This document shows positions 14,931-42,390 of a stretch of 64,000 nt of DNA, in pieces. The position numbers were made by a program, and so were the translations under genes. Location: contig CAJJCX010000001.1 of NCBI GenBank assembly GCA_905182815.1, positions 248,001-312,000 on the forward strand. The letters run 5' to 3'. Source of the DNA: an uncultured Candidatus Thioglobus sp. GTDB lineage: Bacteria > Pseudomonadota > Gammaproteobacteria > PS1 > Pseudothioglobaceae. The first letter of the stretch is position 1. Every line of letters starts with the position of its first letter. The notes under the pieces were generated by a model. It was given only the letters and a program-made list of their open reading frames with translations, did not search any database and was not told the DNA's origin.

Positions 14931-16171
14931 ATGAAAAAAATATTTAAATCGCAAATAGCTCTCGCTCTAGCCGGTATCTTGGCGGGAACATCAGCTATTG
15001 CTGGAACGATTGTCATTAATGGTGACACATCTGATCCAGCGCCAAAGGCGGCATTTCAGGCAGTTATTGATGGATTTGAAGCTGAAAACCCAGATGTAAA
15101 CGTTGTTTACAATCTTTTTGATCATGAAGGCTATAAAGCTGCAATTCGTAACTTTCTAAGTGCTGATGCTCCAGATATTTCATTCTGGTATGCGGGTAAC
15201 AGAATGGCACCATTTGTTGATGCAGGATTGTTCGCACCAATTGATGATGTTTGGGCTGACCAAGGTCTTTACTCACTAATGAAGACGTCTGCTCCAGGTA
15301 TGACTATGGATGGTAAGAAGTGGGGAATTCCTTATACTTATTACAACTGGGGTGTTTACTATCGTCAAGATATCTTTGAAGACCTAGGAATTGCTGTTCC
15401 TAAAACTTGGGATCAATTCATCGCTGCTGGTAAAACTTTAAATGCAAACGGTGTATACTCCAATTACAATTGGTACAAAATATCTATGGACTGCTGGTGG
15501 TGTATTTGATTACTTAAACCTTCGTACAAATGGATATGATTTCCATATGGCTCTAACTAGATGGTGACGTTGCTTGGACTGATGACAGAGTACGTGCAAC
15601 TATGGCGAACTGGAAGCAACTGATTGACGCTGACTTTTTCCTTGAAAATCATGCTGCTTTAAGCTGGCAAGAAGCATTAGCTCCTATGGGTAATGGTGAG
15701 GCTGCTATGTATGTTATGGGTAACTTTGCTGTTGCTCCATTACGTGAGCTAGGTTTGGATGACAGTAAGCTAGGTTTCTTCCAGTTTCCTGAAATAACTC
15801 CGGGAGTTCCTATGGCTGAAGAAGCGCCTACTGACACTATTCATTTATCTGCAGGTGCAAAAAACCCAGTTGACGCTAAGCGTTTCTTAGCTTATGCTGC
15901 GCGCGCTGACGTTCAGACTGCTTGGAATGAAGCGTTAGGTCAGTTACCTACTAATGCGGGCTCAAGTGTTGTTGATGACAAGTTCTTGAATGCTGCATTT
16001 AGTATGCTTAATAATGACGCCCCTGGTGGTGTTGCTCAGTTCTATGATCGTGATACTAAAGCTGAAATGGCCTCTATTGGCATGGAAAACTTTCAAGAGT
16101 TCATGGTTAAGCCTGAGCGCTTAGAGAAGATTCTAGAGCGTCTAGAAAAAGCTCGTGCAAAACTTTATTAA
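14931..16171 (+). pseudogene. Family 1 sugar ABC binding protein (two single-base frameshifts as read; probably intact)
   Basis: Periplasmic oligosaccharide-binding protein for the transporter at 16253-17991. It has a signal peptide ending near SAIAG, then GDTSDPAPKAAFQAVIDGFE and WGIPYTYYNWGVYYRQDIF, typical of MalE/UgpB-like proteins. The frame breaks at about 15459 (an extra T between TAC and CCA, hiding YPITIGTKYLWTAGG) and is restored after about 15559 (an extra A between ACT and GAT, hiding ALTDGDVAWTDDR). Dropping both bases gives one 412-residue protein of normal length. AGGAG precedes ATG 14931. Neighbours suggest an alpha/beta-galactoside such as galactosylglycerol as ligand. Confidence 0.85.
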
Positions 16172-16189
16172 CCAATAAGGTTTTACTCT

Positions 16190-16230
16190 GTCCCGTGTTC
16201 AAGTATTCTTGACACGGGACTTTATTTTTA
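16190..16230 (+). terminator. Terminator-like hairpin between binding protein and permease
   Basis: GTCCCGTGTTCAAG pairs with CTTGACACGGGAC around loop TATT (13 bp with one bulged T), followed by TTTATTTTTA. Its place between the binding-protein and permease genes suggests partial termination, so that binding protein is made in excess. Confidence 0.8.
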
Positions 16231-16252
16231 ATCAATAAAACTCGGAATATGT

Positions 16253-17140
16253 ATGTATTCTTTCTGGAAAAACAATCAATTGAAGTTGTCGCCTTGGATT
16301 TTTTTGGCTCCTGGTATCTTCATGTTTTCCCTTTATGTTATTTTTCCAATTTTTCAATCAATAGGCTTAAGTTTTTATCAGTGGGACGGGCTTGGTGAAA
16401 AAACCTATATAGGTGTTGAAAACTATATAGAGTTATTAGACGATGAATATTTTTTTATCTCATTAAAGAATAATGTTATTTGGCTTGTCCTTTATATACT
16501 AGCAATTCCAGCTGGTCTTTTTGCCGCATTATTTCTTAATCAGACAGTAAGAGGCATAAGAATATACAAATCACTATTCTTTTTCCCATTTGTTATTTCA
16601 CAGGTTGTTGTTGGGCTTGTTTTTAGTTGGTTCTATGACCCTTCAAATGGACTTTTAAATGTTGTCTTGGAAGGCTTTGGATTTAATCCTGTTGCTATCT
16701 TGGCAGAGGAAGACTATGCAACATATGGAATAATTGCAGCGGGCTTATGGCCTCAAACTGCTTATTGTATGATTTTATATTTAACAGGACTTAATTCTGT
16801 TGATCCAGAACAAATTGAAGCAGGCCGAATAGATAATGCAAGAGGCTGGAAAATGTTGTGGTATGTAATACTCCCTCAGTTAAAGCCTGCAACTTTTATT
16901 GCTGTTGTTGTTACGGTGATTGGCGCTCTAAGATCATTTGATTTAATTTCTATTATGACCGCTGGTGGCCCTTGGGGCTCTAGTCGCGTCCTTGCTTATT
17001 ATATGTATGAAAAAGCATTTTCAGAGTATGGCTTTCGTATGGGCTATTCTGCAGCTATAGCAGTAGTTCTTCTTGCTATTATGATGGTTTATATTGGACT
17101 GATTCTGTATAGATTGTATCGAGATGAAAAAGGTTATTAA
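16253..17140 (+). CDS. Sugar ABC transporter permease (MalF/UgpA type)
   Basis: First inner-membrane subunit of the putative galactoside importer. The 295-residue protein has six predicted spans and the EAA coupling loop EAGRIDNARGWKMLWYVILP near residues 187-206, which contacts the ATPase. The start ATG 16253 lies just downstream of the hairpin. The next permease begins two bases after its stop. No ATPase gene follows in this operon; the matching MalK-type ATPase is probably the one at 26866-27924. Confidence 0.92.
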   Translation: MYSFWKNNQLKLSPWIFLAPGIFMFSLYVIFPIFQSIGLSFYQWDGLGEKTYIGVENYIELLDDEYFFISLKNNVIWLVLYILAIPAGLFAALFLNQTVRGIRIYKSLFFFPFVISQVVVGLVFSWFYDPSNGLLNVVLEGFGFNPVAILAEEDYATYGIIAAGLWPQTAYCMILYLTGLNSVDPEQIEAGRIDNARGWKMLWYVILPQLKPATFIAVVVTVIGALRSFDLISIMTAGGPWGSSRVLAYYMYEKAFSEYGFRMGYSAAIAVVLLAIMMVYIGLILYRLYRDEKGY

Positions 17141-17142
17141 TT

Positions 17143-17991
17143 ATGTTTCCAACTCCAATTGAAAGAACCAAGCCATCTACTCAGCGACTCTATAAGATAG
17201 CGCTGCCTATTTCTATAATTATTTGGCTTCTCCCTCTTTTGGCAGTAGCCTTGACCTCTATTCGCTCAGGAGTCGATATAAATTCTGGTAATTATTGGGG
17301 TATGCCAACCTCAATTAATTTTTTTGAAAACTACACTGCTGTCTTTACTGACTCCCCTTTAGGCTATTACATTTTAAATAGCTTTAAAATTACTATACCA
17401 ACTGTTATTGGTGCAATTGTTCTATCAAGTCTCACAGGCTTTGCATTAGGCGTTTATAGGTTTAAACTTAATTTACTGGTATTTTTCCTTTTTGTTGCTG
17501 GCAACTTTATTCCCTATCAAATATTAATGGTTCCAGTAAGAGACCTCTCTCTTTCGCTTGGTCTATATAACTCTGTATGGGGCCTTGTTGCTTTTCATAT
17601 AGCATTTCAAACTGGCTTTTGCACCTTCTTTATGCGAAACTTTATCCGTGCTCTCCCATTTGAGTTAATCGAAGCGGCAAGAGTTGAAGGAGTTTCTGAG
17701 TTTAAAATTTTCTGGTACGTAGTTGTCCCATTAATGCGACCGGCAATGGCTGCATTGTCTGTACTAATTTTTACTTTCATATGGAATGATTATTTTTGGG
17801 CTCTCGTTTTGACACAAGGGGCAGATTCAATGCCAATTACAGCAGGTTTAAATTCGCTTAACGGGCAATGGATTGCGAATCAGCATTTGGTTTCTGCAGG
17901 CTCAATAATTGCAGCACTTCCTCCTGTCTTAATGTTTTTCCTAATGCAGAAGCACTTTATTGCAGGATTAACTCTTGGAGCGGTGAAGTAA
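17143..17991 (+). CDS. Sugar ABC transporter permease (MalG/UgpE type)
   Basis: Second membrane subunit of the same importer. The 282-residue protein has six predicted spans, the EAA loop IEAARVEGVSEFKIFWYVVV near residues 176-195 and the usual C-terminus HFIAGLTLGAVK. Its stop shares a base with the alpha-galactosidase start (TAATG), so uptake and hydrolysis are translationally coupled. Confidence 0.92.
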   Translation: MFPTPIERTKPSTQRLYKIALPISIIIWLLPLLAVALTSIRSGVDINSGNYWGMPTSINFFENYTAVFTDSPLGYYILNSFKITIPTVIGAIVLSSLTGFALGVYRFKLNLLVFFLFVAGNFIPYQILMVPVRDLSLSLGLYNSVWGLVAFHIAFQTGFCTFFMRNFIRALPFELIEAARVEGVSEFKIFWYVVVPLMRPAMAALSVLIFTFIWNDYFWALVLTQGADSMPITAGLNSLNGQWIANQHLVSAGSIIAALPPVLMFFLMQKHFIAGLTLGAVK

Positions 17992-20072
17992 TGAATCAAT
18001 GGCGCCTTGATACTTTTGATCAAACTTTGGTTTTATCATCTTTGAATAATAGGCTTCCATGCGTTATATATTGGGGCAGTCGTTTACCTGACAATGAAAA
18101 TCTTAGCTCCTTATCTACTGCAGTGTCTAAAGATTGGGGGGACAACTTACTGGATAAAGTTCCAGAGTTATCTGTCTTACCAGAGCAGTCTGCAAATTTT
18201 CCAGGACAGCTTGGCTGCAAAATGAGAGGCCTTGATGGAATGATTCTTTCTAGTAACTTTGTTTTTCTAAAAGACGAAGCAAAAGACAACTCATTGTCCT
18301 TAGTCTTTTTGGACAAAGCCATAGAACAAACATATACATTGACAATCATTTCCTTTGAAGAAAGTAATACGTTTAGTCTTAGTGCAAAAATTGACAGCAA
18401 AAAGCCAATATTTATGGACTGGTTTTCTGCTCCAGTAATTCTAGCGCCTCAAAACAGCAATGAAATGATTGACTATGGAGGTCAATGGGGTGGTGAATTC
18501 AGAAGCCAAATAACTCCATGGGTAACTGGTACTCATCTGCGTGAGTCAAGGTCTGGAACAACAAGTCATGCAAATTTCCCTGGCCTTCTTATTCCAACCA
18601 TTGAAAGCTCAGAGAATTCAGGGTCTTGTTATGGTTTTCACTACGGCTGGTCTGGAGGTCATCGTATGATTGCAGAGCAACTTCCAGATGGTCGCAGGCA
18701 AGTTCAATTTGGCAATACTGAAAATAGTGATTTAATTTCTGGAAATTGCTTCGAAACAGCAAGGCTATATATTAGCCATTCTAGTAACGGAATTAGCGGG
18801 GTTGGTAAGTCATTTCGATCTCACGTAGCTAATTCAATTATTAAGGCACCTAAAGACAATGTTAGGCCTGTTCATTACAATTGCTGGGAGGCTATATATT
18901 TTGATCATAATATTGACCAATTAAAAGAAATAGCTAGCCTTGCTTCTGAAATTGGTGCTGAAAGGTTTGTACTGGATGACGGCTGGTTTAAAGGACGTGA
19001 TAGTGCTAACTCTAGTCTTGGTGACTGGGATGTTGACAAGAATAAATATCCTAAAGGATTGCAACCATTAATTAGCCATATCCACTCTCTTAAAATGTCT
19101 TTTGGTTTGTGGTTTGAGCCTGAGATGGTTAGCCCTAATAGTGATCTTTATCGACAGCACCCTGAATGGATAATGGGCCACAAAAATCAAACTCTTGGAC
19201 GAGATCAGTTGGTTCTTAATATTGCCATAAAAGATGTTGAAGATTACCTTTTTAAGAAAATTTCGGCATTGTTAACTGAGTACCCAATTGAGTATATTAA
19301 GTGGGACCATAATCGAGTTCTACCTTATCCAGATGCTTCGCAAACAAAAAGCCTGTATGTTCTTCTAAAGCGAATTAGATTGGCGCATCCAAAAGTTGAG
19401 ATTGAATCCTGCTCATCAGGAGGTGGACGAATAGATTATGGCATTTTAGAAAATACACAAAGGGTTTGGTTGTCTGATAGTAATGATGCAATTGAAAGGT
19501 TACGTATTCAGCATGAGGCAATTTTATGGCTGCCTACTTCGATAACGGGCAGTCATGTTGGGCCAAAGGTTTGTCACACTTCTGGGCGTGAACTTCCACT
19601 AGCATTCAGAGCGTGGGTGGCAGCTCAAAGGCATATGGGATTTGAGATGGATCCTCGTGAACTCTCACCTTCAGATAAAGCACTGCTAAAAGCCGTTACT
19701 AACTGGTGGAAGGAGAATCGTCAATGGATGAAAGATGCAAATATTTTACGATTACCATGTGACGATAAAAGCGTAACCGCTGAAATTCAAATTAATTCAA
19801 GTGAGAATCACTTTGTTGTTTTCGCTGGCCAAAATGCCTTATCAGAATTTAGCTCACCAGTTCCATTGGTCCTATCTGGGCTAGACTCAATGGCAATGTA
19901 TAATGTCTCGTTATACAACAAAAATCATATCAACTCTCTTGGTAAATCAAATGGTGGTCTTTTGCAAAAAACATTGAAGCTTAGTGGGCAATTTTTAATG
20001 AACCATGGACTGCAGTTACCTAAAGCTTTTCCAGCTAGCATGATGGTAATAGAAGGGGATAAAGCTGCATGA
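17991..20072 (+). CDS. Alpha-galactosidase, GH36 family
   Basis: Removes terminal alpha-linked galactose. The 693-residue protein has the GH36 catalytic region: GFHYGWSGGHR, YIKWDHNR (nucleophile Asp near residue 438), SCSSGGGRIDYGIL and WLSDSNDAIERLR (acid/base Asp near 496). No signal peptide is visible, so it acts in the cytoplasm on imported oligosaccharide. I chose ATG 17991, coupled to the permease stop, over an in-frame upstream ATG at 17868 lying inside the permease. With the GH42 enzyme at 24957 it could strip both galactoses from digalactosylglycerol, or act on floridoside or raffinose-type sugars. Confidence 0.92.
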   Translation: MNQWRLDTFDQTLVLSSLNNRLPCVIYWGSRLPDNENLSSLSTAVSKDWGDNLLDKVPELSVLPEQSANFPGQLGCKMRGLDGMILSSNFVFLKDEAKDNSLSLVFLDKAIEQTYTLTIISFEESNTFSLSAKIDSKKPIFMDWFSAPVILAPQNSNEMIDYGGQWGGEFRSQITPWVTGTHLRESRSGTTSHANFPGLLIPTIESSENSGSCYGFHYGWSGGHRMIAEQLPDGRRQVQFGNTENSDLISGNCFETARLYISHSSNGISGVGKSFRSHVANSIIKAPKDNVRPVHYNCWEAIYFDHNIDQLKEIASLASEIGAERFVLDDGWFKGRDSANSSLGDWDVDKNKYPKGLQPLISHIHSLKMSFGLWFEPEMVSPNSDLYRQHPEWIMGHKNQTLGRDQLVLNIAIKDVEDYLFKKISALLTEYPIEYIKWDHNRVLPYPDASQTKSLYVLLKRIRLAHPKVEIESCSSGGGRIDYGILENTQRVWLSDSNDAIERLRIQHEAILWLPTSITGSHVGPKVCHTSGRELPLAFRAWVAAQRHMGFEMDPRELSPSDKALLKAVTNWWKENRQWMKDANILRLPCDDKSVTAEIQINSSENHFVVFAGQNALSEFSSPVPLVLSGLDSMAMYNVSLYNKNHINSLGKSNGGLLQKTLKLSGQFLMNHGLQLPKAFPASMMVIEGDKAA

Positions 20073-21784
20073 GTAAAGCTAACAAGCGTCGATCATCGAA
20101 TTGGTATGGAAAAATGGATAAAGATGGTTTTATCCATCGCAGCTGGATGAAAAGCCAAGGATTCCCAGACCATGTTTTCGATGGACGCCCAATAATTGGT
20201 ATATGCAATACTTGGTCTGAGTTAACCCCATGTAATGCAGGTTTAAGAACTTTAGCTGAAGGCGTTAAGAGGGGTGTTTGGGAGGCAGGAGGTCTGCCAC
20301 TTGAGTTCCCTGTAATGTCATTAGGTGAAACCCAAATGAAACCAACCGCAATGCTTTTTCGAAATCTTTTATCTATGGATGTCGAGGAAAGTATTCGCGC
20401 TTATGGAATTGATGGCGTTGTTTTACTAGGCGGCTGTGATAAAACTACCCCAGGACAATTAATGGGTGCAGCAAGTGTCGATTTGCCGACAATTGTTGTT
20501 TCTTCTGGCCCAATGCTTAATGGTAAATATAAAGGCCAAGATATTGGTTCTGGAACTGATGTTTGGCGCTTTTCTGAAGACGTTAGAGCTGGTGATATGT
20601 CTTTACAAGATTTTATGTCTGCTGAGACAGGAATGAGCCGCTCATCTGGGGTTTGCATGACAATGGGGACTGCATCCACAATGGCAAGCTTGGTTGAAGG
20701 GATGGGCTTAAGTTTACCAACGAATGCGGCTATTCCAGCCGTTGATGCAAGGAGAATGGCTCTTGCGCATATGACAGGAAAGCGCATCGTAGAAATGGTG
20801 GAAGAGGGTTTGAACTTATCTAAAGTTTTAACAAAAGAGAGCTTTCAAAATGCGATTACATTGAACAGCGCAGTTGGCGGTTCAACGAATTCAGTAATTC
20901 ACTTGTTGGCTTTAGCGGGAAGAGCTGAAATTGAACTTACTTTGGAGGACTTTGAGAAAGCGGCAGATATACCGCTTCTTGTTAATTGTATGCCTTCAGG
21001 TAAGTATCTAATGGAAGATTTTTGTTATGCAGGAGGAGTTCCTGCAGTATTGGAGCAAATTAAGAATCATATAAAACCTGCTAATACGATTTTAAATAAA
21101 GACATAACTAATTACTTTAAAGGCGCTGAAACATTCAATGAGGACGTCATTCGGCCAATAAATAACCCACTGAAGCCTGCTGCAGGTTTAAAAGTCTTGA
21201 GAGGGAATTTAGCTCCAAATGGAGCAATTATTAAACCAGCTGCTGCAACAGAAGAGTTGTTAAAGCACGAAGGTTTGGCTTATGTATTTGAAGACATTGA
21301 AGATCTAAAGGCTAATATTGATAGACCTGACCTTCCAGTAACAAAAGACTCTATTCTAGTTTTAAAGGGGTGTGGGCCAAAGGGCTATCCAGGAATGCCT
21401 GAGGTTGGTAATATGCCAATACCAAAGGTATTAATTGAGCAAGGTGTTCGAGATATGATACGTATTTCAGATGCTCGAATGTCAGGCACTGCCTTTGGAA
21501 CTATAGTGCTTCATGTGTCTCCTGAGGCAAATGTAGGTGGCCCTATTTCAATAGTTGAGACTGGTGACCTTATTCGGCTTGATGCTTTTAATGGAGTGCT
21601 TGAGCTTTTAGTTGCAGAGTCTGAAATTGATAAACGTCTTAAGGCAAGGAAAGAGCCAAAAGTAAATTACACCCGTGGATACGCAAAACTTTATATTGAT
21701 CATGTCATGCAAGCTGACAAAGGTGCAGACTTAGACTTCCTAGTAGGCAAAGACACTCGCCTTCCAACACGAGAATCTCATTAA
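20069..21784 (+). CDS. IlvD/EDD-family sugar-acid dehydratase, probable galactonate dehydratase
   Basis: Probably dehydrates D-galactonate to 2-keto-3-deoxygalactonate. The 571-residue protein belongs to the Fe-S IlvD/EDD superfamily, pentonate/hexonate branch, with Cys in SELTPCN (about residue 55), GGCDKTTPG (about 123) and SSGVCMTMGTAS (about 196) as cluster ligands, plus FHRSWMK near the N-terminus as in L-arabinonate dehydratases. The start overlaps alpha-galactosidase by four bases (ATGA). The dgoK/dgoA neighbours indicate a galactonate role, where enteric bacteria use the unrelated enolase-family DgoD. L-arabinonate, D-fuconate or xylonate are alternatives. Confidence 0.85.
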   Translation: MSKANKRRSSNWYGKMDKDGFIHRSWMKSQGFPDHVFDGRPIIGICNTWSELTPCNAGLRTLAEGVKRGVWEAGGLPLEFPVMSLGETQMKPTAMLFRNLLSMDVEESIRAYGIDGVVLLGGCDKTTPGQLMGAASVDLPTIVVSSGPMLNGKYKGQDIGSGTDVWRFSEDVRAGDMSLQDFMSAETGMSRSSGVCMTMGTASTMASLVEGMGLSLPTNAAIPAVDARRMALAHMTGKRIVEMVEEGLNLSKVLTKESFQNAITLNSAVGGSTNSVIHLLALAGRAEIELTLEDFEKAADIPLLVNCMPSGKYLMEDFCYAGGVPAVLEQIKNHIKPANTILNKDITNYFKGAETFNEDVIRPINNPLKPAAGLKVLRGNLAPNGAIIKPAAATEELLKHEGLAYVFEDIEDLKANIDRPDLPVTKDSILVLKGCGPKGYPGMPEVGNMPIPKVLIEQGVRDMIRISDARMSGTAFGTIVLHVSPEANVGGPISIVETGDLIRLDAFNGVLELLVAESEIDKRLKARKEPKVNYTRGYAKLYIDHVMQADKGADLDFLVGKDTRLPTRESH

Positions 21785-22554
21785 TGAATAATTACGCAAT
21801 TTTTAAAGATTTAGAGGATGCTTCAGTTTTTATAACTGGAGGCGGCTCAGGAATAGGGGCTTCATTGACAGAAGGCTTTTTAGCTCAAGGCGCTAAAGTT
21901 GCCTTTGTACAGAGATCAGATTGTGATGAATTTCTAGATGAAATTTCCTCAAAATATAAATATAATCCCTTATTTATTAAATGTGATATTACTGATATTG
22001 ATGCTCTAAAGTCTGCAATTTCAGATGCTAGCAAGGCTAATGGTGGAATTAATGTGCTTATAAATAATGCCGCTAATGACACACGCCACACCCTTGCTGC
22101 CATGACTACAGAAGAATGGGATCAGTCAATTAATATCAATCTAAGACCTCATTTCTTTACAGCACAGGCTGTGGCGCCTTTTATGAGAACTCAAGGTGGC
22201 GGCAGTATTATTAATTTTTCATCAAACTCTTACATGATGGGCAATGCAGGCTTGCCTGCTTATGTTACTTCTAAAGCTGGAATTACAGGTCTAACAAGAA
22301 GTTTAGCGAGAGAGCTTGGCGCTGATGGCATTAGAGTGAACACACTAATCCCAGGTTGGGTTTTAACTGAAAGACAGCTAAAGCTGTGGGCAAATGAAAA
22401 AGATTTAGCAATTCACATGGATAAACAATGCATTAAGGAACACTTATTGCCTAACGATTTAATTGACTCCACTTTATTTTTAGCTTCGAATGCATCACGA
22501 ATGATGACTGGCCAAGCTTTAGTGATTGATGGCGGCGTAGTAGTTACAGGATAA
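21784..22554 (+). CDS. SDR dehydrogenase, probable D-galactose 1-dehydrogenase
   Basis: Likely oxidises D-galactose to galactonolactone with NAD(P). The 256-residue short-chain dehydrogenase has the nucleotide motif TGGGSGIG near residues 19-26, NNAAND near 95-100, catalytic Ser in INFSSNS and YxxxK (YVTSK, about residues 160-164). The C-terminal VIDGGVVVTG is usual for the family. It shares one base with the dehydratase stop (TAATG) and precedes dgoK by seven bases. The sugar specificity is inferred from the pathway; arabinose or fucose activity cannot be excluded. Confidence 0.85.
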   Translation: MNNYAIFKDLEDASVFITGGGSGIGASLTEGFLAQGAKVAFVQRSDCDEFLDEISSKYKYNPLFIKCDITDIDALKSAISDASKANGGINVLINNAANDTRHTLAAMTTEEWDQSININLRPHFFTAQAVAPFMRTQGGGSIINFSSNSYMMGNAGLPAYVTSKAGITGLTRSLARELGADGIRVNTLIPGWVLTERQLKLWANEKDLAIHMDKQCIKEHLLPNDLIDSTLFLASNASRMMTGQALVIDGGVVVTG

Positions 22555-22561: not shown

Positions 22562-23473
22562 ATGAGAGATATTAAAGCTAAATGGATTGCTGCAGATTGG
22601 GGGACAACCCATATGCGCGCTTGGGCTATTGACGAAAAAGGCGAAGTTCTTGCTTATAGTGAGTCGAATGAAGGCATGAAAGATCTCCAGCAGAATGAGT
22701 TTGAGCCAGTATTATTGCGTCTTATTGAAAGCTGGCTTGATAGCGAAAAAGTAACATCTGTTATGGCTTGTGGAATGGTTGGTGCTCGTCAAGGGTGGGT
22801 TGAAACACCGTATTTAAAGACTCCATGCGTTCCTATCGATAAAACTCAACTTACGGTTGCCAGTACTAAGGATCCACGGATACAAGTTAACCTAGTTCCG
22901 GGAGTAATGCAGCATAAGCCTGCAGATATTATGAGGGGTGAAGAAACCCAAATTGCTGGATTTATTAAAGAAAATCCAAGCTTTGATGGTATTGTTTGCC
23001 TTCCTGGTACGCATACAAAATGGGTAAATGTAAGGGCAGGTCAAATAGAAAAATTTAGAACTTTTATGACGGGTGAGCTTTTTGGCGTAATTTCTAACAA
23101 CACTTTAATTAAGCACTCAATTGAGTCAGAAGGGTGGGATCAAGTTAGTTTTGATAACGGAGTTATCAAGGGTTTTGACAACCCAGGTCTAATTGCTTCG
23201 GATCTTTTTTCATTACGATCTGAATCAATAGTTAATGATTTAGATTCTAACTCTGCAAGAGCAACTCTTTCTGGATTACTATTAGGAGTTGAGCTCAACG
23301 GGGCAAAAAATTACTGGAAAGATAAAAATGTCATCCTTATTGGCTCTGAGCTTCTAACTAATAATTATCAAAAAGGATTAAAAATACTTGGTGGTAAAAG
23401 TCTTCCTTTCAGCCTTGAGGCTGCGACATTATCAGGACTGACCTCTGCTTATATGGAGTTGCACTCTGAATAA
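22562..23473 (+). CDS. dgoK: 2-dehydro-3-deoxygalactonokinase
   Basis: Phosphorylates 2-keto-3-deoxygalactonate at O6. The 303-residue protein has the DgoK hallmarks AADWGTTHMRAW (residues 10-21, phosphate-1 loop), ACGMVGARQGWVETPY near 76, MRGEETQIAGF near 125 and CLPGTHTKWV near 149. It sits between the SDR gene and dgoA within one tightly packed operon. It is the best sequence marker that this operon is a De Ley-Doudoroff galactose route. Confidence 0.93.
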   Translation: MRDIKAKWIAADWGTTHMRAWAIDEKGEVLAYSESNEGMKDLQQNEFEPVLLRLIESWLDSEKVTSVMACGMVGARQGWVETPYLKTPCVPIDKTQLTVASTKDPRIQVNLVPGVMQHKPADIMRGEETQIAGFIKENPSFDGIVCLPGTHTKWVNVRAGQIEKFRTFMTGELFGVISNNTLIKHSIESEGWDQVSFDNGVIKGFDNPGLIASDLFSLRSESIVNDLDSNSARATLSGLLLGVELNGAKNYWKDKNVILIGSELLTNNYQKGLKILGGKSLPFSLEAATLSGLTSAYMELHSE

Positions 23474-34959: not shown

Positions 34960-36332
34960 AGTGTATAAGTTGGAATATTCATTTTATTACCAAAATGAAT
35001 AAGCTTATCAGATACATCTCCATAAGTAAAAGCGACATGATGCTCAAGGCCACCTTTAAACATTTGCTGAGCTTTAAGTGCGCTATCATCGCCCAAGCTA
35101 ATTACACCTGATGTTCCTGAAAAAGAGTTTGGTCTATCTATAACAGACGCCTTTAAAACAAAAAATTGAAGTTTATTTTGAGCTTTTGAAACTCTAAAAA
35201 TAGTTATCTCACCTTTTTTAAGACTAAAGTCATGAAGGAGTGGTTTTTTTCTATTAGAGTGAATGCCAGACTTAGCTGTGCCTTCTTTTGCCATGCTGAT
35301 TGGTGCTAAGCCGCAATGCCAAAACACTAAAGAATTGTCTGCTTTGTCAACATCTACAATATCTACGAGAAGGGAGGGGCTATCATTCATTTGATTTAGT
35401 ATGTTGCAGCTGATACCTCCAAGAACATCTGCTTCACAGGCGCAGCTTACTTTTTTCTCATTCATCATTGCCATTGGGCCGCAAGAAGCACAGCCATATT
35501 CTGTAAAAGTCTCTGGCCAGCATCGAATAGCGAAGGCATCAAGATTATGCTTGTCTTTCAAACCCTCTAGGCCATGAAAGATTGAAATACTTTTGTCAAA
35601 CTCATCCTGAACAAGCTCTTCAGTGCCTTGAAGGTAGCCAGAAATGGTATTTTTTGTAGACGCAATTGTGTCTTTACCAACATTTTTTGCTTCATCAAAT
35701 AAATCATCAAGCTCAAGGTTTATTAAAGAAACATTGAGCTTATTGGTGACCTCATCTTGATCATAATCACAGGTATCAAAGCCTTCTGGTCTTGTTCCAA
35801 TAATTCCAATAGTTTGTTTGTCAATTGTGTAGTTAAAATCCATTTGATCATTACTAATAACTGCTTTATTCCATGAAACTTGAGTGTTATTATTTTCTGA
35901 ATTAATAAATTCTATAAATGATTTTTCATTGGCTTTATCATCATCTTCCATAATGATGAAGTCAGGAAAAATATTATTTTTAATTAAAGAGTGAGTTCCA
36001 AGGTTGAGGCCACAGATTGAGTTCAGCCTTAGTCTTCCCCCCGTTCTTGGCTCAGGAAATGAAACAATACAAATTGGTTTATTGATTACTTTAGAAAAAT
36101 TTAATATAAATTTTGCATCAGTAAAAGTTGTTTGAAAAAGGAAAACTTTTTCGCATTCATTGCTTTTAAAAAAATCTAGTGCTTCATTTGCAATTTCATC
36201 GTTTGTAATTAACTGGTCAAAGCCAATTATTTCTGATGTTATAGACTCTAAAAGACCTTTAGCTTGTTTAAATTTAGATTGAGCAAACTCAACATCAAAG
36301 GTTTCTCTTGCCAGGGATAAGTAACCAATCAT
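34956..36332 (-). CDS. L-fucose/L-arabinose isomerase-like protein
   Basis: Probable aldose-ketose isomerase of 458 residues. It resembles the FucI/AraA fold: an N-terminal part with CIVSFPEPRTGGRLRLNSICG near 93-113, a central IRCWPETFTEYGCASCGPMA (about 262-281) with the Glu that normally binds metal, and a C-terminal VFWHCGLAPISMA and GGLEHHVAF. It overlaps its neighbours by four bases on each side, so it works with the aldolase and oxidoreductase. The chain aldose, ketose, ketose phosphate, aldolase fits, with this gene as the aldose isomerase, possibly for sulfoquinovose. I do not recognise a characterised close homologue. Confidence 0.65.
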   Translation of the reverse strand: MIGYLSLARETFDVEFAQSKFKQAKGLLESITSEIIGFDQLITNDEIANEALDFFKSNECEKVFLFQTTFTDAKFILNFSKVINKPICIVSFPEPRTGGRLRLNSICGLNLGTHSLIKNNIFPDFIIMEDDDKANEKSFIEFINSENNNTQVSWNKAVISNDQMDFNYTIDKQTIGIIGTRPEGFDTCDYDQDEVTNKLNVSLINLELDDLFDEAKNVGKDTIASTKNTISGYLQGTEELVQDEFDKSISIFHGLEGLKDKHNLDAFAIRCWPETFTEYGCASCGPMAMMNEKKVSCACEADVLGGISCNILNQMNDSPSLLVDIVDVDKADNSLVFWHCGLAPISMAKEGTAKSGIHSNRKKPLLHDFSLKKGEITIFRVSKAQNKLQFFVLKASVIDRPNSFSGTSGVISLGDDSALKAQQMFKGGLEHHVAFTYGDVSDKLIHFGNKMNIPTYTL

Positions 36333-37348
36333 TTAAAACCTCCAAAATTCTTAGTAAAGTTTTCAGGTTCTTGAATTTTAAAGCCTTTCTTAAAGTAATC
36401 TTTAAGGGAATAGGCTTTTCGTGCAGTCAAGTCGTTTAGCTTGTTAATATAACTCACTGACTCAGTTTTTAATCCTTTATCCACATTTTCGATGTTTGGG
36501 TAGTTCTTAAAGGCATCTAACCAGATTGTTCTTCCGGCTAAGTAACCTGAAGCGCCATTTTGATAGGCTAGCTCAAGGCATTTATAAAATGATGTTTTTC
36601 CCATCCCAGAAGAAAGAACAACCCATGGCTTATTGTTTGTAGCTTTGGCTAGGTTTTTAAATGCATCCTCTGTTTCTTTTGAAATATCACCCTCTAGATC
36701 ATTGCTATCAACTGGAGACTCTAATTTAAATATATCAACCTTATATTTTTCTTTTGCAAACTCTTTGACGCTATCAATAACATGTTGAGATTTTTTTTGT
36801 TTTTGTTCAATGTATTCTTTAGTGTGGTGGTCATCGTCTTGAAAGGGATACACAAGTAGCTCTAGTAAGAAGGGAATACTGTATTTTTCACACTCTTCAC
36901 CAATCCTTTGAACGTATTGTTGTTGATATTCAAGAGATTTTTTTTCAGCATCAGGGCGGTACCAAGCAAGAACTTTGACGGCATCTCCGCCAGCCTTTTT
37001 AATTTTTTCAACACTCCAGTTATCTATGTCACTTGAATATCGACCCTGGAGAGTTTCTTTAAAATCATGCTCTTCAAGGGTTATTACAAGGCCTTTAGAG
37101 TTATTATGTTGCAAGAGGTTTGGAATCGAATAGTGAGGATCCATTAGTATTGCTGTCGCTAAATGAGACAGGTTTGATGTAATCAATTTTTTACATTCTA
37201 CTACTTCCTCATAGCTGTGCTTTCTTCCCTTAGCTGATGAGATGATATTAAATATAGGCGGTCTTTGGTCCACAGCGAGCATTTGAAAGTGGCTATTGTC
37301 CGTACAAAGTTTCTTTAAATGTATTAGCTTTCCAAGGTTTTGATTCAT
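36329..37348 (-). CDS. Class I aldolase of the LacD/YihT type
   Basis: Probable ketose (bis)phosphate aldolase of 339 residues. Visible parts are FQMLAVDQRPP near residues 21-31, the Schiff-base Lys in VDIFKLESPVD near 203, VVLSSGM near 244 and GASGYLAGRTIW near 265. These correspond to tagatose-1,6-bisphosphate aldolase LacD and sulfofructose-1-phosphate aldolase YihT (which has GASGFLAGRAVW, from memory). With the YihV-like kinase it would form the split step giving DHAP and a C3 (sulfo)aldehyde. It is the first gene of the - strand operon; its start faces the ABC operon at 37544 across a shared regulatory region. Tagatose bisphosphate is the main alternative substrate. Confidence 0.75.
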   Translation of the reverse strand: MNQNLGKLIHLKKLCTDNSHFQMLAVDQRPPIFNIISSAKGRKHSYEEVVECKKLITSNLSHLATAILMDPHYSIPNLLQHNNSKGLVITLEEHDFKETLQGRYSSDIDNWSVEKIKKAGGDAVKVLAWYRPDAEKKSLEYQQQYVQRIGEECEKYSIPFLLELLVYPFQDDDHHTKEYIEQKQKKSQHVIDSVKEFAKEKYKVDIFKLESPVDSNDLEGDISKETEDAFKNLAKATNNKPWVVLSSGMGKTSFYKCLELAYQNGASGYLAGRTIWLDAFKNYPNIENVDKGLKTESVSYINKLNDLTARKAYSLKDYFKKGFKIQEPENFTKNFGGFK

Positions 37349-37466: not shown

Positions 37467-37543
37467 CGAATTTCATTAAATTTATTGTTCGTTTAAATTT
37501 GATAGAAAAAGATAATTTTTTAAAATAACTATTGGAGAGAGAT

Positions 37544-38794
37544 ATGAAAAAAAGTATTTTATTGGCATCGTTTCTAGCCATCTCATCGTTTAGTGTCAAC
37601 GCTGCAGAAATTAAGTTTGTCTGCTACCAAGATGCTAATGAGTGTGATGTTTTGCAACAGATGTCTTCAATCTGGGAGAGCTCAACTGGAAATACAGTAA
37701 ATTTTGAAATTGTTGGTTATGATGTTGTGAGAGATCAACTTGAAAACCAACTAGAGGCAGGTTCTGCTCCAGACGTTGCGCGTGTTACAAACTTAGGTGG
37801 ACTTAATCAATATTATCTTGATTTGACTCCTTATGTAGATGCTGCAAAATGGGAAGAAAACTATGGTGCTACCTTGCCATGGTATAGAAAACCATCTGGC
37901 GATAACGGTATTTATGGCTGGCAAGCTCAGCTAACGGTTACTGGTCCATATGTAAACGTTACTATGTTTGAAGATGCTGGTGTTGATATGCCTGAGGAAG
38001 GAGCTTCATGGGATGATTGGGCTGATGCCTTAAGAGTAGTTAAATCAGAGCTTGGCTTGACTGCTGGACTTGCAATGGATAGAACAGCTCATAGATGGGC
38101 TGGACCTGCATTCTCATACGGGGCTAAATTCCATGAAAATGGCGTTCCTATTTTAGTTGATGATGGCTTTAGAGCTTTTGCTGAAACATTTGTTGGATGG
38201 CATAAAGAGGGCTTAATGCCTGCTGAAGGATGGCCTGCTGGTGGAGGAACTGCTTATAAAAATGCAGCACCTCTTTTCCTTGACGGAACTGTAGCTATGC
38301 ACATGTCAGGCTCTTGGATGCTTGGCAACTATGATGCAAACATCACTGATTTTGAGTGGAAAGTTGTTCCAATTCCATGTGGTTCTGGAGGCTGTGGAGC
38401 AATGCCAGGAGGTTCTGGAGTTGTTGCATTTAATTCATCTAAGCACCCTGAAGTTTCCGCTTCTTTCATTGACTTCTTGTCACAAGCTGGAAGAGCTGGT
38501 TTCTTTGCAGCTAACACTTCAAATATTACTGCACACCAAGGCCTTCAAAAGGCAGGTATTGATTATGATAGCGTGAGCCCAAGGGTTTCTGCAGGACTAT
38601 CAACTTTTGCAGCTAATGCGGGTAAAGCGGCTTCATCTACACCGCAAGCCTATTGGTTCCAAGGCTACAATAAGAACTTTGCCATTTATGGTATTGTTCC
38701 TGACTACATAACTAAAGCAATTACAGGTGAAATGAGCCTTGATGAAGCTTTGGCAGCGATTGATGCTGACGTAGCAGCAAAGATAGCTGAATAA
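37544..38794 (+). CDS. Family 1 sugar ABC binding protein, possible sulfoquinovosyl-glycoside binder
   Basis: Periplasmic binding protein of 416 residues with a signal peptide ending SSFSVNAAE (cleavage near residue 20). The mature part begins IKFVCYQDANECDVLQQM, and the protein contains GIYGWQAQLTVTGPYVNV and a Cys-containing CGSGGCGAMPGGSGV segment. Start ATG 37544 is chosen because GGAGAGA lies directly before it; a TTG four codons upstream is less likely. The gene heads a binding protein-permease-permease-ATPase operon, divergent from the aldolase-isomerase-oxidoreductase operon. That arrangement suggests import of the sugar those enzymes handle. The ligand cannot be read from the sequence. 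Confidence 0.88.
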   Translation: MKKSILLASFLAISSFSVNAAEIKFVCYQDANECDVLQQMSSIWESSTGNTVNFEIVGYDVVRDQLENQLEAGSAPDVARVTNLGGLNQYYLDLTPYVDAAKWEENYGATLPWYRKPSGDNGIYGWQAQLTVTGPYVNVTMFEDAGVDMPEEGASWDDWADALRVVKSELGLTAGLAMDRTAHRWAGPAFSYGAKFHENGVPILVDDGFRAFAETFVGWHKEGLMPAEGWPAGGGTAYKNAAPLFLDGTVAMHMSGSWMLGNYDANITDFEWKVVPIPCGSGGCGAMPGGSGVVAFNSSKHPEVSASFIDFLSQAGRAGFFAANTSNITAHQGLQKAGIDYDSVSPRVSAGLSTFAANAGKAASSTPQAYWFQGYNKNFAIYGIVPDYITKAITGEMSLDEALAAIDADVAAKIAE

Positions 38795-38878: not shown

Positions 38879-39934
38879 ATGTTTGAGTCTCTTCTAAATC
38901 TTAATAGCTGGTTCTTGTTCTTTGCCCTGTATCTTTTGATAGGTTTTGTATTGTCTAAAGATGTCTACGGCATATTGCCAAAATTAATGTCAAGCATTGG
39001 ATGGCCAATCGAGTTTACTCAAAAATTATTTGGTACTAAATCACTACCTTATTTATTTTTGTTTCCAAATATCCTTATTTTTGGCCTGTTTACTTTTCTT
39101 CCATTGTTTATGAACTTCGGCTTCTCTGTTACCGATGGAACAAGTATTAACTTTGAAAATAGAGCCTTTTCAGGGCTTGATAACCTGGCAAGAATTACTC
39201 AGGAAGTTCAAATTGATACTGGCGGTATCAACGTTGAAAATGCTAAATTCAAGTCAGCCCTATACGACACATTTGTTTTTGTTATTCTTCAAGTCCCTAT
39301 TATGATTCTCATTGCACTTTTTACTGCAATAGTTCTTAATAGAGAGGTCATAGGAAGAGGTTTTTGGAGGGCTGTATTTTTCTATCCAGTCATGCTGAGT
39401 CCGGTGGTTGTTGCATTTCTATGGACTCTAATATTAAAGAGGCAAGGCATGTTGTCTCAAACGCTAATGGACTGGAACTGGATCAGTGAACCGATACAGT
39501 GGTTAATGGATCCAAGCTGGACTATGTTCTGGTCAATCTTTGTCTATACATGGGCTCATATGGGTTTTTATATGCTCATCTTGCTGGCTGGACTTCAGTC
39601 AATTCCAAGGGATCTTTATGAAGCTGCACAAATGGATGGGACTTCTGAAAGGCGAGTTTTTTGGCGTATTACATTACCCTTATTGATGCCAATCTTGCTA
39701 GTTGTAACCGTACTATCATTAATTAAAGCCGTCCAAGCATTCGAAGAGCTATACGCACTCCAAGTTGGCTGGATCTCTCTTGTTTCTTATATCGTTGAAA
39801 ATGCTGGAATTAGGGGTCAAAAAACATTTTTTGGTCTTGGAATAGCGGCAATGGCATCGTTAATTGTTGCGCTGATACTAATTGTTCTTTCTTTACTGCA
39901 ATTCTATTTAACTAGGAGGCAAGTGAAGCTATGA
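38879..39934 (+). CDS. Sugar ABC transporter permease (MalF type)
   Basis: Membrane subunit of 351 residues. An N-terminal extension of about 50 residues contains an extra hydrophobic segment (WFLFFALYLLIGFVL) before the usual six spans. The EAA loop YEAAQMDGTSERRVFWRITL lies near residues 248-267. The stop overlaps the next permease start by four bases (ATGA). Confidence 0.9.
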   Translation: MFESLLNLNSWFLFFALYLLIGFVLSKDVYGILPKLMSSIGWPIEFTQKLFGTKSLPYLFLFPNILIFGLFTFLPLFMNFGFSVTDGTSINFENRAFSGLDNLARITQEVQIDTGGINVENAKFKSALYDTFVFVILQVPIMILIALFTAIVLNREVIGRGFWRAVFFYPVMLSPVVVAFLWTLILKRQGMLSQTLMDWNWISEPIQWLMDPSWTMFWSIFVYTWAHMGFYMLILLAGLQSIPRDLYEAAQMDGTSERRVFWRITLPLLMPILLVVTVLSLIKAVQAFEELYALQVGWISLVSYIVENAGIRGQKTFFGLGIAAMASLIVALILIVLSLLQFYLTRRQVKL

Positions 39935-41364
39935 CAGACGTCATTAAATTTTTTACTCGCAGGCAAGGAAAAAAGAAAGCTAGTCTGACTGATTGGATTT
40001 CTTATGGTTTTTTGTTTCTTGGGTTTTTAATTATCTTTTTGCCAGTTTTATGGCTAGTTATGAACTCAGTTAAATCACAGTTTTTACTTCAAAAATACGA
40101 TACTAATTTTCTACCAATGGACTATGAGCGAATCGCCAGAGCGACAACCTATGGTCCAGATGGTAAAAATATATTGATTATGAAAGACCTTGAGCCTTGG
40201 GTCATGTTCTGGAAAAACTTAGATGACGAAGAAAGAGCTGAAAAAGATGTTGCCAGTTATATTAATAATTTTAGTGGAAATGAATATTACGCTCTAAGAT
40301 CTCACTTTGGTTTGGTTTCAGTTATGGCAAAAGACTTAATTGCCAATCAAAATTTACCTGATTGGCTTATTAAGTATCCAAGTATGTTCCCTAGTGCGAA
40401 GAAAGACTATGATCCTCAATCTATAGTAGACAATCTAGATCAAGAAGATGCTAGATTATTATCAGAATATTTAGGACTTAAGCCTTATAAACCTAATGGC
40501 TTTACTGCTCAAATTCTAATCTCCATGGCTGATCCTCAAACGGGTGAGTTAGTTGAGTACTCGGTAAGTCGAATTAACCCAACTAAAGACACTGTTAATG
40601 CAAGGCTTGTATCTAACCCTGAGGGAGGAATAGCTAAACTTCCTCAGAACGAAATTATTATCAATAAAAACTTAAAGCCTTCCTGGATAAACTATACAGA
40701 CCCTTTGACTAAAAAGGCTTTAGGGAGCTTTGATGCTGTTAGATGTCTAAATAACTCTGTATTTGTTACTATTGTGGCAACCTTGATAACGTTATTGATT
40801 AATTCAATGGCAGCTTTTGCTTTGTCTAAGTATCGATTTAATGGGCAAGTAGTCTTTTTTGTAATAATACTTGCAACTCTAATGGTGCCTGCGTCTGTAT
40901 TAATTGTTGGTATTTTCAAAATGGTAACAATGACTGGCTTATCAGGCTCTCTTTGGGGGGTGATTATTCCAGGGGCTGCAACGCCTACTGGAGTCTTTAT
41001 GCTTAGGCAGTATATGCTTACTATTCCAGATGAGCTTCTGGAAGCTGCCAGAATGGATGCTGCGAGTGAGTGGACAATTTATTGGCGAATTATATTTCCA
41101 TTGGCTCTCCCGGCGATAGCCGTTCTAGGTATTCTTTCAATTATATGGCGCTGGAATGATTTAATTCTGCCAATGATAGCTGTGTCAACTACAAAGGCTG
41201 CTTATACCATTCAGCTCTGTTTACTTGACTTTAATGGTGAGTACCTTGCAAGAGAACACTACGCTTTAGCAATGACCGTAGTTAGCTTGGTGCCAACAAC
41301 ACTGGTTTTTGTTTTTCTTCAAAAATATATTACAACAGGCATTGCCTCAACAGGCATGAAATAA
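39931..41364 (+). CDS. Sugar ABC transporter permease (MalG type) with large periplasmic insertion
   Basis: Membrane subunit of 477 residues, some 190 more than the usual 280-290. The first span (about residues 26-48, YGFLFLGFLIIFLPVLW) is followed by a hydrophilic stretch of roughly 200 residues rich in charged residues before the second span near 273. The remaining five spans and the EAA loop LLEAARMDAASEWTIYWRII (about 370-389) are normal. The insertion should face the periplasm and could help dock the binding protein or ligand. The frame is continuous, so it is not an artefact of fusion by frameshift. Confidence 0.9.
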   Translation: MTDVIKFFTRRQGKKKASLTDWISYGFLFLGFLIIFLPVLWLVMNSVKSQFLLQKYDTNFLPMDYERIARATTYGPDGKNILIMKDLEPWVMFWKNLDDEERAEKDVASYINNFSGNEYYALRSHFGLVSVMAKDLIANQNLPDWLIKYPSMFPSAKKDYDPQSIVDNLDQEDARLLSEYLGLKPYKPNGFTAQILISMADPQTGELVEYSVSRINPTKDTVNARLVSNPEGGIAKLPQNEIIINKNLKPSWINYTDPLTKKALGSFDAVRCLNNSVFVTIVATLITLLINSMAAFALSKYRFNGQVVFFVIILATLMVPASVLIVGIFKMVTMTGLSGSLWGVIIPGAATPTGVFMLRQYMLTIPDELLEAARMDAASEWTIYWRIIFPLALPAIAVLGILSIIWRWNDLILPMIAVSTTKAAYTIQLCLLDFNGEYLAREHYALAMTVVSLVPTTLVFVFLQKYITTGIASTGMK

Positions 41365-41367
41365 ATT

Positions 41368-42390
41368 ATGGCAAATCTTAAATTAAATGACATTAAAAAA
41401 TCATATGGCAAAACTGAGGTTATTCATGGGCTCGATCTAGAGGTCTTAGATGGCGAGTTTTGTGTTTTAGTTGGCCCATCTGGCTGTGGTAAATCAACAC
41501 TTTTAAGAATGATTGCTGGCTTGGAGGCGATTACAGAAGGGACGATTTCAATAAATGATGAGAAGGTTAATGATGTCTCTGCAGCAAAAAGAGGCCTTGC
41601 AATGGTGTTCCAGTCTTATGCCTTATATCCACATATGACGGTTCGTCAAAATCTTGCATTTGGACTTGAAAACCTAAAACTTGATAAGGATGATATTGAG
41701 CAAAGGATAACAAAAGCTGCAAATCAGCTGAGGATGCAGGACTATCTAAAAAGAAGGCCAGGGCAGCTATCTGGAGGTCAAAGACAGCGCGTTGCGATTG
41801 GAAGGGCGATTGTTAGAGAGCCGTCAATCTATCTTTTTGATGAGCCATTATCAAACCTTGATGCAGAGCTTCGCGTAGCAACAAGGGTTGAGCTAAAAGC
41901 GCTCCATGCAAGACTTGGCAATACAATGATTTATGTTACACATGACCAGGTTGAAGCAATGACTATGGCTGATAAAATTGTTGTGATGCATGACGGCATT
42001 ATTGAGCAAACTGGCTCCCCTTTGGATGTATACAATAAGCCAGCTAATTTATTTGTTGCCGGATTTATTGGCTCACCAAAAATGAATTTTTTAGACTGTG
42101 CCTCACTTCCTGATGACATTAAAAAGCTTTCTCCAAAGGGTGCAACTACTTTTGGTATAAGACCAGAACACCTTAAAATAGAAGATAAATATTCTCTGTC
42201 ATTGAGAGTTCAGACAGTTGAGCAGCTAGGCTCTGATAGCTATCTTTATGGTGAAACAATAGACAATCAAGAAATCTCTATAAAATTAAATACTCAAACC
42301 ACTATCAAGAGCGGCGAGTCTGTTAAAGTTGGTTTTAGTAAAAAAGACACACACTGGTTCAATGAAAAAGGTGTTTCCCTTAATTTTTGA
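41368..42390 (+). CDS. Sugar ABC transporter ATPase (MalK/UgpC type)
   Basis: Energy subunit of the importer at 37544-41364. The 340-residue protein has Walker A GPSGCGKST (residues 36-44), VFQSYALYPHM, signature LSGGQRQR, Walker B YLFDEPLSNLD and switch His in YVTHDQ, followed by a C-terminal TOBE region with FGIRPEHL. It starts three bases after the permease stop. Confidence 0.93.
   Translation: MANLKLNDIKKSYGKTEVIHGLDLEVLDGEFCVLVGPSGCGKSTLLRMIAGLEAITEGTISINDEKVNDVSAAKRGLAMVFQSYALYPHMTVRQNLAFGLENLKLDKDDIEQRITKAANQLRMQDYLKRRPGQLSGGQRQRVAIGRAIVREPSIYLFDEPLSNLDAELRVATRVELKALHARLGNTMIYVTHDQVEAMTMADKIVVMHDGIIEQTGSPLDVYNKPANLFVAGFIGSPKMNFLDCASLPDDIKKLSPKGATTFGIRPEHLKIEDKYSLSLRVQTVEQLGSDSYLYGETIDNQEISIKLNTQTTIKSGESVKVGFSKKDTHWFNEKGVSLNF

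Follow-up and report, generated by a model that had tools for sequence, protein, structure and literature searches.

Galactolipids are major lipids of thylakoid membranes, and which of the abundant open-ocean bacteria use the water-soluble head groups of sulfolipids and galactolipids is poorly known. Here we describe a 64,000-nucleotide stretch of DNA (the window; G000:C1:248001-312000) from a Pseudothioglobus genome of the SUP05/Arctic96BD-19 lineage (1.32 Mb, 77% complete), in which a galactose block (14931-26859), glycerol genes and a sulfoquinovose (SQ) block (32034-42390) lie next to each other. In the sections of PMC10755693 available, SQ production is put at about ten billion tons a year, and the marine SQ degraders named so far, in sources likewise available in part, are Roseobacter-clade bacteria and Vibrio. 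In a low-ice Arctic community, SQ genes were enriched together with glycoside hydrolase families GH36 and GH42, which the accessible part of PMC10504371 does not assign to one organism. In the open-access literature (subscription papers lie outside this search) on SQ or galactosylglycerol with Thioglobus, SAR116 or AEGEAN-169, no such locus was among the matches listed.

Several described systems resemble parts of this locus. The sulfoglycolytic Embden-Meyerhof-Parnas (sulfo-EMP) cluster of Arthrobacter AK01, as far as the available text of PMC10755693 and PMC8873060 describes it, has in common with the SQ block a GH188 enzyme, a sulfofructose kinase, an ATP-binding cassette (ABC) importer and a sulfofructose-1-phosphate (SFP) aldolase, the last a candidate in the window. 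Here, however, the isomerase is FucI/SftI-like and not YihS, the block contains no GabD-type sulfolactaldehyde (SLA) dehydrogenase, an extra gene resembling phosphoglycerate dehydrogenase (PGDH) is present, and the host is a Gammaproteobacterium. The GH188 'Y160' cluster of Actinobacteria bacterium IMCC26103 includes an SLA dehydrogenase, SuyAB and a D-3-phosphoglycerate dehydrogenase in the portion of PMC11465081 available; likened by gene descriptions, it shares with the window the latter enzyme, a fucose isomerase, SFP aldolase, sulfofructose kinase, ABC transporters and GH188. The composition of this sulfo-EMP variant is, according to the same portion, already described in Actinobacteria. 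The window differs from IMCC26103 in that the SuyAB-like pair is unlinked and no SLA dehydrogenase is in the block, that Leu and not Tyr occupies the L170 position of GH188, and that a galactose block and glpK stand alongside. The SlcC/ComC-SuyAB sulfolactate route of Paracoccus wurundjeri (cited there from Chromohalobacter salexigens; PMC12421959, in the part available) has counterparts in the window's genome, likened by family and not by phylogeny: a PGDH-like dehydrogenase, one of the Ldh_2 family and a SuyAB-like pair, whose genes are scattered over the genome. For the galactose block, all five step classes of the De Ley-Doudoroff pathway, as generally known, occur in one run, but here joined to GH36, GH42 and, in most species, glpK. 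A beta-galactosidase for the galactosylglycerols of galactolipids had also been invoked early on for the lac operon of E. coli (Egel 1979, cited through the accessible part of PMC8333865); that hypothesis had no sulfolipid part and concerned other genes.

We suggest that the window probably carries two neighboring cassettes that break down the head groups of thylakoid lipids after deacylation and share a glycerol exit. The gene order was found again in other genomes, and the locus is therefore no chance reading. A sequence-only reading of this DNA had proposed a locus for galactosylglycerol, sulfoquinovosylglycerol (SQGro) and glycerol. Domain and NCBIfam models found all the gene classes it had named, two family-1 importers included, where it had placed them; its gene list was incomplete in one respect, having overlooked a 2-hydroxyacid dehydrogenase (32948-33874) that is part of the SQ block. 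For comparison we used 83 genomes of the family (G-numbers), 29 of which form the genus subset, and named loci that were fetched separately (L-numbers).

The entry enzyme of the SQ block is predicted to be a GH188 NAD+-dependent sulfoquinovosidase of the SqgA type, a Gfo/Idh/MocA protein encoded on the minus strand at 33871..34959. It matched the solved structures 8qc2 and 8qc3 (FlSqgA/ArSqgA) with 379 and 367 bits over residues 4-357/359, which is its full length; an unnamed oxidoreductase, 8zn9, scored 337 bits and the next solved match 84. We took the active-site positions from the available part of PMC10755693 and mapped them by counting on the 8qc2/8qc3 alignment, where Glu163 of the paper is 164 by count. 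The catalytic and sugar residues K107, Y136, E189, H193 and H321 of ArSqgA are kept as K98, Y127, E180, H184 and H307 of the window protein, as are the glutamate ahead of the RFPFLHK loop (E155) and the sulfonate triad R166, L170 and K172 (R157, L161 and K163). All nine positions were invariant among the genus proteins aligned (14 of 15). A generic sugar dehydrogenase was considered and set aside: its top NCBIfam model, inositol dehydrogenase, scored 127 bits, under the cut-off of 355, vs 379 for SqgA. Queried against named genomes, the protein had its top matches in Ca. Pseudothioglobus aerophilus, Ca. Thioglobus sp. and uncultured gammaproteobacteria.

The remaining enzymes of the block fit a sulfo-EMP route. 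The PfkB-family kinase (32034..32945, plus strand) is a putative sulfofructose kinase, its top solved match being E. coli YihV (7ag6) with 153 bits vs 107 for the uncharacterized sugar kinase 2rbc and 63 for the ribokinase 1gqt. The candidate SQ isomerase (34956..36332, minus strand) is SftI/SqvD-like with an arabinose/fucose-isomerase fold; SftI (NF048012) was its sole NCBIfam match (296 bits, E 4.8e-88), and Foldseek with a model of predicted local distance difference test (pLDDT) score 81 returned arabinose and fucose isomerases at E 6e-21, with a TM-score of about 0.5 and a root-mean-square deviation of about 24. The LacD/YihT-class aldolase (36329..37348, minus strand; NF009498, 335 bits, cut-off 184), proposed to act on SFP, belongs to the DeoC/LacD family and matched 8tnf, whose function is unnamed, with 280 bits, ahead of LacD (about 146) and YihT (64). 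The gene overlooked before (32948..33874, plus strand) encodes a PGDH-like D-2-hydroxyacid dehydrogenase, a proposed sulfolactate dehydrogenase, with GxGxxG, Arg, Glu and His motifs and 263 bits to TIGR01327, under the cut-off of 454.

Next to these enzymes lies importer 2, all on the plus strand. It consists of the family-1 binding protein SBP2 (37532..38794; PF01547), whose N-terminus resembles a signal peptide by eye, permease a (38879..39934; PF00528), permease b (39931..41364; PF00528 on residues 299-469 of 477) and an ATPase (41368..42390; PF00005). Homologues of SBP2 about 80% identical adjoin GH188 in marine Alphaproteobacteria. SBP2 was also near GH188 in one locus outside both Pseudothioglobus and these Alphaproteobacteria, L101 (Comamonadaceae), where GH188 stands beside a GH31, an alkanesulfonate-monooxygenase-like protein, a flavin reductase and an aldo-keto reductase, all under their NCBIfam cut-offs. 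Presumably L101 is akin to the sulfoquinovose monooxygenase (sulfo-SMO) clusters. The same importer stands beside two chemistries, which suggests that it carries SQ or SQGro. None of the 11 solved sequences that matched SBP2 was named as the sulfoquinovosyl-glycerol-binding protein SmoF. The long N-terminal extension of permease b is not peculiar to the window, the length of 477 aa being found in three named relatives as well. The interval that separates SBP2 from the aldolase, which holds no gene in the window, has a regulator-like open reading frame (ORF) of 266 aa in another locus (L040:5348-6148).

We then compared 69 named GH188 loci: 12 of Pseudothioglobus (identity at least 78%), 38 of marine Alphaproteobacteria (as named) and 19 others. 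A gene was counted as present near GH188 when it scored at least 100 bits in the fetched stretch, which reached up to 10 kb on each side and was often limited by the contig. The PGDH-like gene was near GH188 in 11/12 Pseudothioglobus, 35/38 alphaproteobacterial and 0/19 other loci; the corresponding counts were 12/12, 30/38 and 0/19 for the isomerase, 11/12, 26/38 and 0/19 for the kinase, 9/12, 18/38 and 0/19 for the aldolase, and 10/12, 15/38 and 1/19 for SBP2. The aldolase is the least constant part of the SQ unit. Beyond the genus, none of the 57 loci showed GH36 or GH42 within 10 kb of GH188; the scan used patterns from genus members and therefore under-sampled distant lineages. The alphaproteobacterial locus L050 has its PGDH-like gene in a run with two sulfopyruvate decarboxylase subunits, both above their NCBIfam cut-offs (222.1 vs 221.5 and 161.3 vs 147.95), and the sequence clusters to which these two subunits belong were found in 21/38 and 20/38 marine alphaproteobacterial loci. 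This context, and the actinobacterial GH188 cluster as far as PMC11465081 is available, favor the conversion of sulfolactate to sulfopyruvate as the predicted reaction and direction of the PGDH-like enzyme.

Several observations weigh against a uniform sulfo-EMP assignment. The isomerase scored far under the SftI cut-off of 700, and the AlphaFold model of SBP2 (pLDDT 42) was too poor for use. In the stretches available from G010 and G023 the aldolase gene is absent from the SQ run, the ATPase following 46 and 62 bases after the isomerase; together with its absence from many alphaproteobacterial loci, this means that the aldolase is not a universal step of the pathway. Within the SQ block there was neither an SLA dehydrogenase (SlaB/GabD) nor an SLA reductase (YihU), and no lipase for deacylation was seen at the locus. 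Even so, the residues kept in GH188, the YihV match of the kinase, the SftI-family isomerase and the importer that recurs beside GH188 strongly support, from sequence, the earlier proposal of SQGro. We read the SQ block as a probable sulfo-EMP variant, a hybrid of the EMP1 and EMP2 types, in which the predicted GH188 enzyme acts first on SQGro.

Other arrangements were seen among the GH188 loci. L050:8637-14009 and similar alphaproteobacterial loci hold the isomerase, kinase, PGDH-like gene and sulfopyruvate decarboxylase, with no LacD-type aldolase in the stretch. In L078:1-21074 (Pelagibacteraceae), GH188 lies between relatives of both importers, accompanied by sulfopyruvate-decarboxylase-type genes and a GH31-type gene; neither isomerase nor kinase is nearby, and a class I fructose-bisphosphate aldolase is close. 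L067:5018-9830 and L071:5033-9907 (marine Alphaproteobacteria, one of them SAR116) have ORFs that by eye look like parts of a tripartite ATP-independent periplasmic (TRAP) transporter inside their SQ loci, and the SQ locus of L067 also holds a MauG-like di-heme protein.

The genes that might release the sulfonate lie elsewhere in the genome. There, adjacent ORFs of 93 aa and 391 aa (the latter with PF04295) are followed by a histidinol-dehydrogenase-like protein, a short-chain dehydrogenase/reductase (SDR) and an alcohol dehydrogenase, and neighboring ORFs resemble, by eye, a GntR regulator and TRAP transporter parts. PF04295 was above cut-off in 6/6 genomes. The histidinol-dehydrogenase-like protein scored 685 bits to 8v35 vs 236 to the top histidinol dehydrogenase and is by these matches assigned as a sulfopropanediol 3-dehydrogenase. 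The 93-aa and 391-aa pair is a SuyAB-like candidate, and the sulfopropanediol 3-dehydrogenase beside it leads us to predict sulfite release. Two points tell against this assignment: the only NCBIfam match of the pair was galactarate dehydratase, and weak, and the name SuyAB is taken from PF04295, the sizes, the pairing and what is generally known of SuyB. As an observation apart, the stretch L184:2015-7353 of the window's genome, with the SuyAB-like genes, the sulfopropanediol 3-dehydrogenase, SDR, alcohol dehydrogenase and a regulator-like ORF, is likely to be a cluster for the utilization of 2,3-dihydroxypropane-1-sulfonate (DHPS).

ComC-family (PF02615) genes were found in 25/29 genus genomes. 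For oxidation of SLA there were several candidates, with 13-15 aldehyde dehydrogenase matches per genome in three genomes, so many that no one gene is singled out, which again speaks against a neatly defined route. PF03446, the family of SLA-reductase candidates, had 13-16 matches per genome, and the one protein scored reached 147 bits to the sulfolactaldehyde 3-reductase model, under the cut-off of 348 and under its own best model (171). The conversion of sulfolactate to sulfoacetaldehyde via ComDE was set aside for the genus, the sulfopyruvate decarboxylase beta subunit being above cut-off in 0/29 genomes (the alpha subunit was not searched for); the alphaproteobacterial loci suggest this route for their own hosts.

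The galactose block is on the plus strand up to GH42. It begins with importer 1, comprising the family-1 sugar-binding protein SBP1 (14931..16171; frame-broken, PF01547 on both halves), permease a (16253..17140; PF00528) and permease b (17143..17991; PF00528). A GH36 alpha-galactosidase follows (17868..20072; PF02065, Melibiase, 342 bits), with alpha-galactosidase AgaA as its best solved match (304 bits); the listed ORF overlaps the permease, so its true start is probably further downstream. Then come an IlvD/Edd-type sugar-acid dehydratase (20069..21784), by context a galactonate dehydratase, with 880 bits to NF004784 (cut-off 539) and 800 bits to the L-arabinonate dehydratase model (under its cut-off of 882), and an SDR sugar 1-dehydrogenase (21784..22554), by context a galactose dehydrogenase, whose top NCBIfam model was D-xylose 1-dehydrogenase (276 bits, under the cut-off of 400). 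DgoK 2-keto-3-deoxygalactonokinase (22562..23473; PF05035, 310 bits), DgoA 2-keto-3-deoxy-6-phosphogalactonate aldolase (23484..24086; NF006600, 250 bits, cut-off 207) and a sugar lactonase like SMP-30/gluconolactonase (24086..24949; PF08450, 224 bits) come next, and the gaps between these five step classes are at most 10 bases. The De Ley-Doudoroff set of dehydrogenase, lactonase, dehydratase, DgoK and DgoA is, by these models, complete, the substrates of the SDR and the dehydratase being assigned by context. The galactokinase domain PF10509 was found in 0/6 genomes searched.

After these comes a GH42 beta-galactosidase (25002..26859; listed ORF 25234-26859; PF02449, 296 bits), which has a frame change near 25370 and its N-terminus in another frame at about 25002-25370. 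The window ORF carries the motifs WQLDNEYG and MEQQPGP, and an unbroken relative, L042, matched the solved beta-galactosidases 6y2k and 1kwg with 673 and 670 bits. On the minus strand follow a UgpC/MalK-type ATPase (26866..27924; NF008653, 478 bits, cut-off 432), presumably that of importer 1, and an IclR-family regulator (27943..28686; PF01614, 139 bits). GH36 was found in 13/83 family genomes, all inside the genus, and GH42 accompanied it in all 13 (on a separate contig in G032). Galactosylglycerol and digalactosylglycerol are plausible substrates of the block, though unproven, because GH36, GH42 and the galactose route suit any alpha- or beta-galactoside.

Between the IclR gene and the SQ block lie, on the plus strand, glpD (28913-30463; glycerol-3-phosphate dehydrogenase, frame-broken, with 318 bits to NF008899 on its N-terminal piece, cut-off 360) and the glycerol kinase gene glpK (30463..31962; TIGR01311, 697 bits, cut-off 590). 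In 12/13 GH36-bearing genomes glpK is in the galactose run beside the block's IclR gene, the exception being G029; in G032 it is on a second contig together with the remaining galactose block. The glpD gene is between the IclR gene and glpK in G000 and G031. In G014, where an unbroken glpD (505 aa) separates GH188 from the kinase within the SQ operon, release of glycerol by the SQ block is independently indicated. Glycerol as a product feeding glpK and glpD, which the sequence-only reading had put forward, is thus supported. Its statement that glpF is missing also holds as far as searched, the MIP family not being found in the window's 77%-complete genome. One MIP copy was present in 5/6 genomes searched, and the three sequences inspected carry NPARS, unlike the NPARD that we assume to be the GlpF motif.

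GH188 was found in 15/83 family genomes, all inside the genus. SQ and galactose-block genes were at the same place on one contig in 8 of these 15 (G000, G007, G008, G011, G012, G016, G029 and G032); the contigs of G016 and G032 have only part of the galactose block, and G029 is without glpK there. G020 has glpK at a contig end adjoining the SQ block, and G005 has both blocks on separate contigs, another cassette adjoining its SQ block; G014 and G018 were left out of the linked count. The expected co-occurrence across genomes stood for the eight and not for G031, which has the galactose block with glpDK but no SQ block, nor for G006, G010 and G023, which have SQ genes but no GH36. Since the blocks are not always linked, they are better seen as juxtaposed modules than as one obligate pathway, a qualification of our proposal. 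Taken together, these data show that the joint locus is genuine and kept in several species, but modular, and seen only in this genus.

We propose that importer 2 would take in SQGro, and that GH188 would oxidize its C3 with NAD+, eliminate glycerol, hydrate and re-reduce to yield SQ. The SftI-like isomerase would convert SQ to sulfofructose, the YihV-like kinase would phosphorylate this to SFP, and the LacD/YihT-class aldolase would cleave SFP to dihydroxyacetone phosphate and SLA. A cellular aldehyde dehydrogenase may oxidize SLA to S-sulfolactate, which the PGDH-like and Ldh_2-family (ComC-like) enzymes could invert via sulfopyruvate, and the unlinked putative SuyAB would split R-sulfolactate into pyruvate and sulfite. 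Importer 1 may take in galactosyl- and digalactosylglycerol, from which GH36 and then GH42 would release galactose, to be converted by the SDR, lactonase, dehydratase, DgoK and DgoA to pyruvate and glyceraldehyde-3-phosphate. Glycerol from both cassettes would enter via GlpK and GlpD.

The galactose block might instead serve ordinary galactosides (melibiose, raffinose-type or galactan oligosaccharides), with glpK and glpD as unrelated neighbors and only the SQ block related to lipids. Its enzymes would suit such substrates, the top solved matches of GH36 and GH42 being general alpha- and beta-galactosidases, and marine AEGEAN-169 genomes are annotated with raffinose/stachyose/melibiose importers in the accessible part of PMC10308909. 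In addition, glpK is present in 22/29 genomes of the genus, and 9 of these lack a GH36 match; its presence therefore does not depend on the galactose block, and the galactosylglycerol link is suggestive, not proven. We nevertheless regard this explanation as unlikely, given that glpK is in the same run in all but one of the GH36-bearing genomes and that the block is co-located with the SQGro block in eight. A use for floridoside or isofloridoside, the alpha-galactosylglycerol osmolytes of red algae, for which GH36 and glycerol kinase would suffice by general knowledge, is quite improbable, because GH42, which accompanies GH36 throughout, has no role for floridoside.

The two blocks could also be independent operons joined by chance in one lineage and inherited without a functional link, which would be compatible with the head-group reading of each block. 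SQ genes occur without GH36 in G006, G010 and G023, the galactose block with glpDK of G031 runs directly into the amidohydrolase gene, leaving an empty site for the SQ block, and the association statistics are weak: among the 29 genus genomes, many of them incomplete, 9 had both GH188 and GH36, 6 GH188 only (counting G016, though part of its galactose block was seen), 4 GH36 only and 10 neither (Fisher two-sided p 0.14), and p was 0.09 among the 14 genomes at least 89% complete. All of this counts against a shared function. However, species whose proteins share about 62-100% identity with those of the window still have the joint order, and both blocks would release glycerol at a common glpK, so that chance joining seems to us somewhat unlikely. 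As to the sulfonate, it may not be mineralized, SLA being reduced or oxidized and DHPS or sulfolactate exported, with the PGDH-like enzyme itself handling SLA. The PGDH-like gene is indeed the one dehydrogenase of alcohol/aldehyde type in the block (11/12 Pseudothioglobus loci), and the lack of the sulfopyruvate decarboxylase beta subunit above cut-off fits with export. But 2-hydroxyacid dehydrogenases are generally known to use 2-keto/2-hydroxy acids and not aldehydes, the genome has SuyAB-like genes with a sulfopropanediol 3-dehydrogenase, and Xsc was above cut-off in 21/29 genus genomes; on balance we doubt that the sulfonate leaves the cell intact.

If two head-group cassettes are the correct reading, the locus suggests Pseudothioglobus as a consumer and, given their shared SQ unit, also SAR116 and other marine Alphaproteobacteria. 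It is of value chiefly in naming an abundant marine lineage, represented in culture by Ca. Thioglobus singularis PS1 (PMC4616169), in which the use of thylakoid head groups could be tested. More tentatively, it is possible that this cosmopolitan, sulfur-oxidizing mixotroph of the SUP05 clade uses dead phytoplankton membranes for carbon and electrons, that a single genomic site serves the uptake of galactosyl- and sulfoquinovosylglycerol, and that sulfite freed by SuyAB feeds its own sulfur oxidation, taking sulfolipid to sulfate in one cell.

Frame changes break four genes in this assembly: SBP1, GH42, glpD, which is readable only across three frames, and an amidohydrolase gene (42431-43796). 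Relatives have each of them as one uninterrupted frame: SBP1 of 412 aa (G007) and 410 aa (G008), GH42 of 635 aa (G007) and 633 aa (G008), the amidohydrolase of 454 aa (G008, L041 and L082; truncated by the end of the stretch in G007) and glpD of 498-505 aa (G010, G014 and G031). The breaks are therefore probably assembly errors.

Outside the locus, a purine-salvage run at 178-13242 encodes urate oxidase, an amidohydrolase, xanthine dehydrogenase subunits with XdhC, a BMP-type ABC importer and adenosine deaminase, and parts of it adjoin the galactose block in several relatives. Downstream, positions 46229-60367 hold more family-1 sugar ABC importer genes with two binding proteins, a LacI regulator, an N-acylglucosamine 2-epimerase and a two-component system.

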